From: Bacteroidota bacterium
GTDB lineage: Bacteria > Bacteroidota > Ignavibacteria > Ignavibacteriales > Ignavibacteriaceae
DNA: 47,637 nucleotides
Direction: 5' to 3'
Assembly: GCA_021813585.1 (NCBI GenBank)
Contig: JAKAJV010000012.1
Span: forward strand, 1 to 47,637
This document shows positions 33,178-47,252 of the stretch, one piece after another. The notes beneath the pieces are model-generated. The model searched no databases. It saw nothing but the letters and a program-made list of their open reading frames with translations, and was not told the DNA's origin. Made by a program: the position numbers and the translations under genes. Every line of letters starts with the position of its first letter. Positions within the stretch are counted from its first letter, which is position 1.

Positions 33178-33897
33178 TTAGGACTTCAATAAAAAGTTAA
33201 AATCAAATTCCATTTTCTCTTCGCAATAAAAAGGCTCTCCGTAATGCCTGCCGATCTGAAATCCGTAAAACTGCGCTCTTGATTCTACGTATTTCAGGAA
33301 TTCGGGCTTACTAATAAACGTCTCGGGCTCAATGCTCTTGGGGTTGTGGAATTGAGTCTCATACGTTTTAACTGCCTTCATCTTCACATCAAAATAATTG
33401 GATATATCGACAATAAAAGTGGGATCGAAAGTAAAGGTTTGCATGTAATAGAAAAGCTTATGAGGCCTGAAAATATCCTGGGCAACTTCTTTATCGAATG
33501 TTTTTATTTTTGCCAGACCGGTAGAGAACATAGCGCGCTTAACCAGCTGGCTGGCATCAATATGGTCAGGGTGCCTGTCGTTAAAATATGGCGCAAATAT
33601 AATTTTCGGCTTATACCTTCTTATCGTCATTATCACCTTCATCAAATTATCTTTTGTCATATGAATTCCCCCGTCGGCGATATGAAGGTTTTCCCTTAGA
33701 GCGGCTTTAAGAACAATTGCGGCCTGGAACGCTTCTTTTTGCCTTATCTCGGCAGTGCCTCTTGTACCGAGTTCTCCACGGGTTAAATCAATTATTCCCA
33801 CTTTAACCTGATTTGAAGTCAGTTTTGCTATCGTCCCGCCCATTGATAGCTCGGCATCATCCGGATGCGCCGCAAATACTAGTACGTCTAGATTCAT
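33178..33897 (-). CDS. bshB1: Bacillithiol biosynthesis deacetylase BshB1
   Basis: This zinc deacetylase of the PIG-L/LmbE family removes acetate from GlcNAc-malate in bacillithiol synthesis. The motif AAHPDDAELSMGGT holds the zinc ligands, RGELGTRGT is the BshB1 signature, and DRHPDHIDA supplies the third ligand. Length of 239 aa is exact for BshB1. bshA and bshC are not in the window. It implies that the cell uses bacillithiol as its low-molecular-weight thiol. Confidence 0.93.
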   Translation of the reverse strand: MNLDVLVFAAHPDDAELSMGGTIAKLTSNQVKVGIIDLTRGELGTRGTAEIRQKEAFQAAIVLKAALRENLHIADGGIHMTKDNLMKVIMTIRRYKPKIIFAPYFNDRHPDHIDASQLVKRAMFSTGLAKIKTFDKEVAQDIFRPHKLFYYMQTFTFDPTFIVDISNYFDVKMKAVKTYETQFHNPKSIEPETFISKPEFLKYVESRAQFYGFQIGRHYGEPFYCEEKMEFDFNFLLKS

Positions 33898-34113: not shown

Positions 34114-35775
34114 ATGTTTATTAAACTTCTTTTAGCAGGTATCTTAATGATAATTTCTAGTAAGAATTTAATTTCTCAGAATAACATGACTGCCTTTATA
34201 AACGGTAAAATTTACACCGTCAATAAAAATCAACCGATGGCGCAGGCAGTTCTTATCCGGGAAAATAAAATTATATTCGTCGGCAGCAGCGACGAAGTAA
34301 AAAGGATGATTACCGGTGATACGAGAATTATCGATCTTAAAGGCAGGCTTATGCTTCCGGGATTTATAGACGATCATGTACACTTTATAAGCGGCGGATT
34401 TTATCTGCTTGGTCTTAACCTTAGACCTGCAAAAACAACCGCTGAATTTAAATCCATATTGAAAAAGTATATTGAAAAAAATAAAGGCAAATGGATTACA
34501 GGCGGCAACTGGGACCATGAGGCCTGGGAGGTAAAAGACCTGCCGACTAAAGAAATGATAGATGATTTTACCACTAATACTCCTGTCTTTATAGACCGGT
34601 TTGACGGACATATGGCTCTTGCAAACTCGTACGCTCTTAAATTAGCCGGTATTACTAAAAATACTCCTAACCCGGACGGCGGTACGATTGTAAAAGACAA
34701 ATTAACGGGCGAGCCTACCGGTATACTTAAGGATAATGCGATGGCGCTTATTTACAGAATTATACCCGATAATACCGGGGAAGAAAATTATCAAGCTGCA
34801 CTTGCCGCATTAAACGAAGCAAAAAAATTCGGTGTAACCAGCGCACAGGATATTACGTATAAAAGTAACCTCATCGTTTATCAGAAATTGGAGAAAGAAA
34901 ATAAACTTACTTGCCGTATTTATACCAGGCTGCCTATTGCAAGTTATAAAAGCCTGGCAGATGCCGGAATACAATATAATTTTGGCGACGATAAAATTAA
35001 ACTCGGCTCATTGAAAGCATTTGCAGACGGCTCGCTGGGCTCCAGTACGGCCTGGTTTTTCGATCGCTATAATCAGGATACGACCACTTACGGTTTGCCT
35101 ATGGATATTGTATCCGACGGGAGCCTTGAAAAGTGGGCAACGGATGCCGATAAAAACCTTCTGCAGATTTCTACGCATGCTATAGGCGACAGAGCCAACG
35201 CATATATGCTTGATCTTTACGAAAAAATTGAAAATACAAATCCCAAGTGGGATAGAAGATTCAGGATTGAGCATGCACAGCATCTGAGGAAAACAGATAT
35301 AGATAGATTCGCTAAACTGGGTGTTATTGCTTCGGCGCAGCCTTATCATTGCATCGACGACGGTGTTTGGGCTGAAAAAAGAATAGGTCGCGAAAGGATA
35401 AAAGATGCTTACCCATTTAAATCGCTAATTGATGCCGGAGCTGTTTTATGCTTTGGAAGCGATTGGACAGTAGCGCCAATAAATCCATTACTCGGAATTT
35501 ACGCCGCCGTTACAAGAAGAACACTTGACGATAAAAATCCCGGCGGCTGGATACCAGAACAAAAAATTTCGGTGGAAGATGCAATTAGATGCTACACTAT
35601 TAACAATGCTTATGCTGCTTTCGAAGAAAACATAAAAGGCTCGATTGAACCGGGAAAGCTTGCCGACCTGGTTGTGCTTGACAATGACATTCTTACGATT
35701 GACCCTGTAAAGATAAAAGATGCTAAGGTTTGCATTACTGTATTTGACGGTGATATTATTTTTCAATCGGATTAA
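34114..35775 (+). CDS. Exported YtcJ-like amidohydrolase
   Basis: A signal peptide (MFIKLLLAGILMIISSKNL) precedes the amidohydrolase-3 fold. The metal motif HVH is in DDHVHFISGG, with later ISTHAIGDRANA, RIEHAQHLRK and CFGSDWTVAPINP. YtcJ-type enzymes hydrolyse amides or imidates of unknown physiological substrate. GGAGG lies 5 nt before the ATG (34104-34108), so the start is secure. Length is 553 aa, as usual. Confidence 0.92.
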   Translation: MFIKLLLAGILMIISSKNLISQNNMTAFINGKIYTVNKNQPMAQAVLIRENKIIFVGSSDEVKRMITGDTRIIDLKGRLMLPGFIDDHVHFISGGFYLLGLNLRPAKTTAEFKSILKKYIEKNKGKWITGGNWDHEAWEVKDLPTKEMIDDFTTNTPVFIDRFDGHMALANSYALKLAGITKNTPNPDGGTIVKDKLTGEPTGILKDNAMALIYRIIPDNTGEENYQAALAALNEAKKFGVTSAQDITYKSNLIVYQKLEKENKLTCRIYTRLPIASYKSLADAGIQYNFGDDKIKLGSLKAFADGSLGSSTAWFFDRYNQDTTTYGLPMDIVSDGSLEKWATDADKNLLQISTHAIGDRANAYMLDLYEKIENTNPKWDRRFRIEHAQHLRKTDIDRFAKLGVIASAQPYHCIDDGVWAEKRIGRERIKDAYPFKSLIDAGAVLCFGSDWTVAPINPLLGIYAAVTRRTLDDKNPGGWIPEQKISVEDAIRCYTINNAYAAFEENIKGSIEPGKLADLVVLDNDILTIDPVKIKDAKVCITVFDGDIIFQSD

Positions 35776-36166
35776 AAATAATATGTCCGCTAAAGTTTTC
35801 CGGCATTTTACTCGATTATAATACCGGGAAATAAAATTCAGAAGCCGGCAAGGCGGCTTTATTTCCCCCGCAAATAGGTTAAGGAATTTATACATGCGGC
35901 AAATGGTTTTATAAATCTTTGCAAAAAAAATAGAATGTCGAAAAATTTATATCATTTATCGGCTGTATAAACCTTTTAACGAATAACTGATTGCTGTGTG
36001 TGGCAAAATTATTTATTTTAACATCAGTAAAAGTTCATTGCGGATAAACTGAACTTAAATTTGCTCTAATTTGATTTAACTATCTAAAATCAGAATCAAA
36101 AAATTGAATTTGATCTGGCATTAAATTTTTTTGTATTAAATTTCTAAAATTACGGGAGAAAGAAAT
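35776..36166. other. 391-bp intergenic region
   Basis: No protein of normal length is encoded. A stable hairpin (GGGAAATA at 35826-35833 with TATTTCCC at 35860-35867, enclosing AAGCCG/CGGCTT) follows the amidohydrolase and probably marks its 3' end, although no U-run follows. The rest is AT-rich DNA leading into the 35-aa gene. Confidence 0.5.
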
Positions 36167-36274
36167 ATGGATATGTTTTCGATTATTGTATCTTCTTTAG
36201 GAATTTTTTTCGGTTCGGCTTTACTGCTAATCGGCGGCTCTTATTTAGCTTATAAAGCCAAGAACAGGGAATAA
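36167..36274 (+). CDS. 35-aa single-span membrane protein (micro-protein family member 1)
   Basis: The frame reads M-D-M-F-S then a hydrophobic stretch and ends with GSYLAYKAKNRE. GGGAG lies 9 nt before the ATG. The tail SYLxYKxKN is shared with two other small genes (46944-47072 and 47124-47252), and the matching codons differ at synonymous sites, so the reading frame itself is conserved. N-terminus out and basic C-terminus in the cytosol is the likely topology. Function unknown; superficially like KdpF-type subunits, but no kdp gene is near. Confidence 0.75.
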   Translation: MDMFSIIVSSLGIFFGSALLLIGGSYLAYKAKNRE

Positions 36275-36454
36275 ATGATTTCCACTCCATGGGTGCAATT
36301 TTTTTTATCCTTTACATCTGTACGAAAAGTTTTATTCGTTTGTTCCTGGTGTCGGGCCTTTTAGCAGTATAAAGTCTAAAAAGAATTACCTGTATACCTG
36401 AATTAGTTTCTCTTCTAGGGTCCAATTAAATCGCTTCCGAAAAACTTGAACATG

Positions 36455-46943: not shown

Positions 46944-47072
46944 ATGTCGTTAACCGAACTTTCTTTTTCTGCAATCGCAGTAGTATTTGGAGCAATGTTT
47001 ATTCTGGTCGGAATTTCATACTTGTCATATAAATTGAAAAATAAACCTCCCTACAACGTACGCTCTAATTGA
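46944..47072 (+). CDS. 42-aa single-span membrane protein (micro-protein family member 2)
   Basis: After M-S-L-T-E-L comes a hydrophobic helix ending in GISYLSYKLKNKP and a short polar tail. It shares [LI]SYLxYKL(K/R)NKP with the next gene and SYLxYKxKN with the gene at 36167, with synonymous codon differences. A weak GAGTGGG site precedes it. It lies 201 bp after the receiver gene and may respond to it. Confidence 0.75.
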   Translation: MSLTELSFSAIAVVFGAMFILVGISYLSYKLKNKPPYNVRSN

Positions 47073-47123: not shown

Positions 47124-47252
47124 ATGGAAATCTATAGGACTATAATTCCATTCCTAGCCGGTTTATTTGTTTTGGGCTGCGCTGTTGTTTTAATATCTTA
47201 CCTTGTTTATAAGCTAAGAAATAAACCAAAAAAATTTTACTCCCTTTTTTAA
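47124..47252 (+). CDS. 42-aa single-span membrane protein (micro-protein family member 3)
   Basis: A hydrophobic helix (~7-28) ends in ISYLVYKLRNKP, followed by a lysine-rich tail. It is a tandem relative of the gene at 46944-47072 with a 51-nt gap. The tail's resemblance to KdpF is superficial, as the potassium-pump genes are absent. Function unknown. Confidence 0.75.
   Translation: MEIYRTIIPFLAGLFVLGCAVVLISYLVYKLRNKPKKFYSLF

Follow-up and report, generated by a model that had tools for sequence, protein, structure and literature searches.

A family of single-span micro-proteins in the Ignavibacteriales, with tandem pairs and tail-bearing relatives

The locus and its short frames

The window, a stretch of 47,637 nucleotides from a genome of the Ignavibacteriaceae, holds three short frames on the forward strand which share a SYxxYK block. 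The first (36167–36274, + strand) encodes P0001, a 35-residue single-span protein which on translation ends in GGSYLAYKAKNRE, as originally predicted, and the Shine-Dalgarno site claimed for it is present as GGGAG at 36154–36158 (+), 8 nt 5' of the ATG. Directly after its stop lies a terminator-like hairpin (36283–36295) followed by a T run (36283–36304 together, + strand), recognised by consensus match only. Three such sites occur between 35700 and 36500, against a mean of 0.6 (sd 0.8) in shuffles, the other two lying inside the 35-residue frame and on the minus strand. The remaining frames, at 46944–47072 and 47124–47252 (both +), each encode a 42-residue single-span protein and form a tandem pair, with translations containing ISYLSYKLKNKP and ISYLVYKLRNKP, respectively. 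P0001 and the first member of the pair are assigned to type a, the second member to type b (see Tandem pairs). The original prediction gave the positions and the shared block of the 42-residue frames correctly, but took the block to be their end; past ISYLSYKLKNKP and ISYLVYKLRNKP the proteins run seven residues more, PYNVRSN in the first and KKFYSLF in the second. From stop to stop the three frames span 42–50 codons, the block begins at residue 25 from the Met in all of them and, read from the DNA, SYL is encoded in the three blocks by the different synonymous codons that had been named.

P0001 is located directly downstream of an Amidohydro_3 protein gene (34114–35775, +), beyond which lies a PIG-L family gene (33178–33897, −), while a NimA-like Pyridox_ox_2 gene (PF12900; 36455–37129, −) converges on it from the other side. 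In locus L109 of the sister species G003, a positional ortholog of P0001 follows the same two genes, the amidohydrolase being 70% identical over 527 aa and the PIG-L protein 78% identical; the NimA-like gene is not next to the ortholog, and a second family member stands in front of the latter. The earlier picture of P0001 alone beside a NimA-like gene is thus right as to the neighbour and is amended as to "alone". A pair similar to P0001 plus partner is also present in G010, elsewhere in the genome. A lost partner gene before P0001 was considered and rejected, the 391 bases at 35776–36166 holding no convincing frame. The tandem pair follows a lone response-regulator receiver gene (PF00072; 46311–46742, +), in agreement with the original prediction. 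In G001 (L114), too, the pair comes after a receiver, which is 51% identical over 118 aa. The window's pair lies 385 bases from the end of the contig. Homologues at conserved positions in related genomes, the lack of which had been set beforehand as a ground for refutation, are found.

Extent of the family

A DNA motif pattern applied to the 4.54 Mb genome gives 3 matches, all in the window, and its reversed control gives 0. A looser pattern, free of any start codon, matches in 14 of 59 genomes, that of the window included; on reading of the frames a comparable helix with block is present at four loci elsewhere (G001, G003, G009 and G028), and none was seen among the remaining matches. The block begins at residue 25 in all seven founder sequences (three from the window and four from other genomes), a spacing which was not built into the search, since the four homologues came from the start-codon-free pattern. 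It holds in 121 of 127 distinct members, a count to be read with a profile which favours residue 25, although its seven founders were found start-free. At E<0.01 the 7-row profile identifies six copies in the genome of the window, among which the three window copies are rows of the profile itself. Two of the others, absent from the profile, are a 35-residue protein on contig C78 (E 1.6e-10) and a 130-residue one on C12 (E 2e-7), and the sixth has 170 residues and lies on C74 (E 0.0023). The profile search proposed for related genomes recovers a family, of which the window frames are three of six copies in their own genome.

All 13 genomes of the genus give a match to a 26-row profile at E≤0.1 and, across the phylum, at least 30 of 296 sampled genomes do so at E≤0.001 (for some genomes, among 26 scored candidates). 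Twenty-seven of these belong to the window's order (families f1–f3) and three to one family of another class, two of which were read and are long forms of a glycosyltransferase kind. A profile built solely from short members matches 15 of 52 genomes of the family (genomes at least 90% complete) at E≤1e-5; short frames are present in 12 of these, namely 9 of 9 searched genomes of the genus plus G027, G031 and G061, and the other 3 carry long frames only. The short forms are narrower in distribution than the whole family. The loci read contain 127 distinct proteins, 57 short (34–49 aa) and 70 long (98–267 aa), with a bimodal distribution of lengths and none between 50 and 97 aa. This is a genuine family, found mainly in one order, the Ignavibacteriales.

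Small single-span accessory proteins are well known as a kind and are easily missed by annotation. The statement that no named family has this tail is borne out: the members scanned give no match over the curated cut-offs of Pfam or NCBIfam, PDB sequences offer nothing convincing (best E 0.47), and literature listings and the opening parts of abstracts contain no description of such a family. The family is apparently undescribed, and so are its pairs and the tail-bearing relatives.

Coding status and selection

Among 14 orthologs of Group I, to which the C78 copy of the window's genome belongs, 91 of 91 pairs have a lower pN than pS, with a pooled pN/pS of 0.315. For the ten nearest pairs dN/dS lies between 0.05 and 0.16 in six, the closest pair differing by one change of each kind, and in the rest dS is saturated; pN/pS is reported for distant pairs because synonymous saturation limits dN/dS. 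Pooled values for the sets of the window proteins are 0.38 for P0001 (3 pairs), 0.41 for P0002 (6 pairs) and 0.55 for P0003 (6 pairs), the P0003 type being therefore under the weakest constraint. Counted by codon position, two close Group I pairs show 4/3/10 and 3/2/17 differences, and in them the annotated frame gives the strongest contrast of pS and pN (0.49/0.06 and 0.64/0.08), against 0.10/0.18, 0.24/0.16, 0.05/0.26 and 0.11/0.24 in the other frames. Strict Shine-Dalgarno sites precede 30 of 55 short frames, compared with a mean of 1.9 and a maximum of 8 in shuffled sequence. The earlier claim, drawn from the synonymous codons, that selection acts on protein and not on DNA agrees with the 91 Group I pairs, and a dN/dS near 1, named as a finding that would count against it, is not seen, pN/pS being below 1 in all sets. 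Judged by these substitution patterns, the short frames are genes under protein-level selection.

Frames of 35–42 codons are common in any genome, which could make the three window frames a matter of chance with a coincidental common tail; the E values of 1.6e-10 and 2e-7 for genome copies outside the profile, together with synteny, synonymous divergence and Shine-Dalgarno sites, leave this reading practically no weight.

Where genes are paired, the first usually has a clear Shine-Dalgarno site and in several pairs the second does not (47124 in the window, L114, L117, L139, L164 and L166), while in L142 and L144 the second gene does have one. Absence of the site from second genes may reflect translational coupling.

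Anatomy and topology

AlphaFold2 predicts P0001 as a single helix comprising residues 3–32, with a mean pLDDT of 90.7, which supports the original description of a single-span micro-protein. The mean net charge of the short members is about −0.6 over residues 1–4 and +3.7 (38 sequences) or +4.8 (8 sequences) over residues 30–39. The N-terminus is slightly acidic and the C-terminus strongly basic; by the positive-inside rule the former would face the periplasm and SYxxYK the cytoplasm, and the topology of the short members is probably N-out/C-in. The SYxxYK block and the basic tail would then be positioned at the cytoplasmic face of the inner membrane, and the fixed 24 residues before the block would fit a helix that just spans it. 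A glycine-zipper packing face in type a was considered and rejected, as the small residues are without helical periodicity (p 0.81). A period-7 test of type a, chosen after looking, gives p 0.025 and the full period scan p 0.41.

Tandem pairs

Tandem pairs, defined as members on the same strand less than 400 bp apart, number 23 among the 127 proteins: 13 short-short, 10 long-long and none mixed. Loci added later contributed one further pair of each kind, for a total of 14 short pairs, of which 46944/47124 is one. Closely related genomes (genus g20) contribute several of the pairs. Two types, a and b, fit the 13 short pairs that were typed, clearly so in nine. The a/b labelling of these 13 scores best of 4096, a score which expresses consistency and is not an independent test, because the labels were drawn first. 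The order is a-b in nine loci, including the window, and b-a in four, all from the window's genus. In a sorting of copies by nearest seed, for which b seeds were drawn solely from a-b loci, the copies of second type in the four b-a loci group with type a, and these may represent a separate partner type. Similarity between b copies (51.7) is little above that between a and b (42–45). The division into two types is thus less secure than the pairing.

The neighbours of the pairs vary, with a receiver gene in the window and G001, and elsewhere an ABC-2 exporter, or a cytochrome plus an M16 peptidase. In six genomes (G027, G031, G061, G074, G085 and G409) the pair follows an ABC-2 exporter, assigned by Pfam for the G061 genes only and by likeness for the others, and in six loci it precedes M1 peptidases, families being assigned by Pfam on examples and otherwise by likeness. 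That the pairs stay together while their neighbours change suggests that the two members probably form a hetero-oligomer.

An alternative reading takes the short proteins for membrane-depolarising type I toxin-like or stress peptides of the TisB, Ibs and DinQ kind, held in check by antisense RNA, which they resemble in being small, in having one helix with a basic tail and in occurring as tandem copies (compare PMC8309996, PMC3567139). Against such a role, neither Pfam nor NCBIfam gives a family match over cut-off, promoter-like sites in both window regions show no excess over shuffles (by a sigma-70 consensus that may not suit the phylum), and an Rfam scan of the window finds no family. To our knowledge, Shine-Dalgarno sites, tail-bearing relatives and stable neighbourhoods, all found in this family, are not typical of type I toxins either, and a toxin-like function is considered unlikely.

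Envelope neighbourhoods

Of the 14 Group I orthologs, 11 have a TlpA-like gene within the locus read, the other three loci being truncated by contig ends; Pfam and NCBIfam were applied here to the copies of the window's own genome. Between the short gene and the TlpA-like thioredoxin gene, just upstream of the latter, most of these loci also contain a one-span protein of 86–109 aa (L129:2742-3014, with likely orthologs in L111, L119, L121, L123, L125–L127, L145 and L162). It carries MAQKKxKPKERQIGKK or a near variant, and the one copy scanned has no Pfam or NCBIfam match.

Several other neighbours carry a type IX secretion tail. Of ten gene ends picked for scanning as apparent neighbours of interest, eight matched Por_Secre_tail (PF18962) and two, M1 peptidases, did not; against the 27-bit cut-off six of the eight are clearly over, one is at 27 and one at 26.1. 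These two C-terminal parts were those scanned for M1 peptidases beside pairs, and no type IX tail was seen in them. A local profile built from the eight matching ends places a gene with a type IX tail as the next neighbour on one side of 12 of 54 short copies. Six of these 12 share the strand of that gene and follow it at a distance of 77–156 bp (L116, L134, L141, L165 and two in L167). A search for new members of this subtype added ten loci, and in L208, L209 and L210 the copy lies 85–106 bp downstream of a type IX-tail gene, which makes nine copies of the subtype within 77–156 bp. These three loci are apparently orthologous to L134, and the gene on their far side is also of the kind found there. 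No type IX tail was seen in L213–L216 (loci of f2 and f3), the end of the downstream gene being out of view in L214; L207 ends at a contig end, and L211 and L212 belong to other groups. The window contains no type IX genes, so its own copies are not beside any.

By ortholog group, 5 of 13 have a type IX neighbour, against about 5–7% expected per group (P 0.0004–0.002), the background being that of the genus only, among the matches listed (up to 150 per genome). The enrichment is only suggestive, because the groups were drawn post hoc, gene numbers were estimated from genome size and the background is limited to the genus. If the link with cargo is real, it would point to a hitherto unknown inner-membrane step for type IX cargo.

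The steady position of Group I near a TlpA-like gene, usually with an 88-aa membrane protein, and the pairs after ABC-2 exporters in the six genomes named above could also be explained if each short protein were devoted to regulating a single membrane complex encoded next to it, in the manner of AcrZ (PMC7267776) with AcrB. The family would then be a toolkit recruited anew for each neighbour, and its pairs would be duplicated regulators. Among the alternatives to the reading proposed below, such an AcrZ-like role is the foremost. Against it, pairs persist while the neighbour changes, which favours the pair as the unit, and P0001 is flanked by an amidohydrolase and a NimA-like gene, with no membrane complex; the role is considered possible, with perhaps one chance in a few.

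Long, tail-bearing relatives

The long members (98–267 aa) consist of the same N-terminal module followed by a tail. With the short-only profile, 34 of the 58 longs of Group III are recovered at E≤1e-3, which is not an unbiased estimate because the longs were collected with a profile containing shorts. In the same search, shuffling the whole module leaves 0 of 350 sequences matching, shuffling the helix only 10 of 350, and shuffling the juxtamembrane part only 0 of 350; helix sequence and motif therefore both carry the likeness of shorts to longs. An HU-like gene is present in the loci of 43 of the 58 Group III longs, and several of these loci also contain a zinc-ribbon/TPR gene (Pfam, one example) and mraZ- and rsmH-like genes (by likeness). 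Among the 44 non-redundant tails of Group III, 25 contain the motif R[FIY]x[IV][LIVM]N (RFxILN-like), compared with a mean of 0.09 and a maximum of 2 in shuffled tails, for a pattern that was chosen after looking. Two more motifs exceed shuffles to a lesser degree, one being present in 11 of the 44 tails (2.3 in shuffles) and the other in 14 (4.1 in shuffles).

Examples of tail-bearing relatives beside HU-like genes include L130:3090-3482, L147:2699-3181 and L169:1753-2897, among others. In one f2 genome a long-long pair is flanked by HU-like and zinc-ribbon genes, and about 620 bp past these genes stands a 36-residue protein (L213:3096-3206), the sole short form seen in the HU niche.

Since the N-terminal module is common to both forms and nothing among the 127 members falls between 50 and 97 aa, the short frames might be regarded as relics or truncated copies of long, tail-bearing genes. 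This is very improbable: the shorts are under purifying selection, none of 55 is followed within 500 bases by an RFxILN-like match in the forward frames (a scan to which motif-less longs are invisible), and a terminator-like site follows P0001.

Group IV longs are positioned between a GT2 gene and a polysaccharide-deacetylase-like gene. They are only putatively related to the shorts, with 0 of 12 found at E≤1e-3 by the short-only profile and a best value of 0.003. One-span proteins of this type, 136–170 aa in length, occur at L131:3368-3880, L161, L168, L171, L172, L174 and L175, with GT2/deacetylase flanks in most; a varying end block like KYTSEGY...LKWR is seen in L131, L161, L168, L174 and L175, and L171 and L172 represent a relative in another class of the phylum.

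Proposed role

Selection, tandem pairing and partial adjacency to genes for exported proteins suggest that the family may be one of small envelope helper subunits. The reading put forward here, tentatively and with somewhat less than even confidence, is a lineage-specific family of small inner-membrane accessory subunits, in which pairs would form hetero-oligomers that help envelope proteins and longs would serve as tail anchors. The short helices would act as accessory subunits by binding other helices, and gene order suggests that the two members of a pair would associate with one another. Such complexes could help envelope proteins to be inserted, exported or held, candidate clients being type IX secretion cargo, exported peptidases, the TlpA-like thioredoxin and ABC-2 exporters. 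In the longer relatives this anchor would tether a tail that carries a short motif on the cytoplasmic side.

A more far-reaching version is improbable: a modular inner-membrane system of the Ignavibacteriales built on a 35-residue anchor, with paired and cargo-linked helices as companions of type IX cargo and other exported proteins on the one hand and, on the other, tails with an RFxILN-like motif holding a cytoplasmic partner beside an HU gene. If true, this would add a new layer to type IX export or to the assembly of the envelope. As the family is large, conserved and regularly placed (pairs, type IX, HU), it offers testable predictions in a little-studied order.

Comparison with known systems

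In the sense used for plants, microProteins are single-domain relatives of larger proteins. The shorts resemble them in sharing only the anchor module with longer relatives, one domain by which the short-only profile reaches the 34 of 58 Group III longs at E≤1e-3, but differ in that no mixed short-long tandem pair occurs among the 23.

C-terminal sorting signals of the LPXTG, LPxTATN and PEP-CTERM kinds combine a motif, a helix and a basic tail, whereas the family members are whole proteins with their own start codon and often a Shine-Dalgarno site. The resemblance to sorting-signal families reaches 12.7–13 bits against cut-offs of 20–32, and the window frames, at 42–50 codons from stop to stop, are not the C-termini of larger exported proteins, in line with the start codons and Shine-Dalgarno sites seen in the short members.

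The type I toxins TisB, Ibs, Ldr and Fst are small hydrophobic single-span peptides found in tandem copies, a build and arrangement shared by the family. In contrast to them, the family has stable neighbourhoods, with no toxin-family profile matched in Pfam or NCBIfam and no antisense sign in the scans run.

AcrZ, KdpF and CydX are proteins of 30–50 aa with one helix, encoded near membrane complexes and presumed to act by helix-helix contact. The family is alike in size and in its single helix; as to genes near membrane complexes, the pairs after ABC-2 exporters fit, and the window copies, within the reach of the contig, do not. Membership in these named families by sequence was not found in Pfam or NCBIfam at cut-off, nor convincingly among PDB sequences (best E 0.47). 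Unlike them, it is one family spread over many neighbourhoods, with tandem pairs and tail-bearing relatives.
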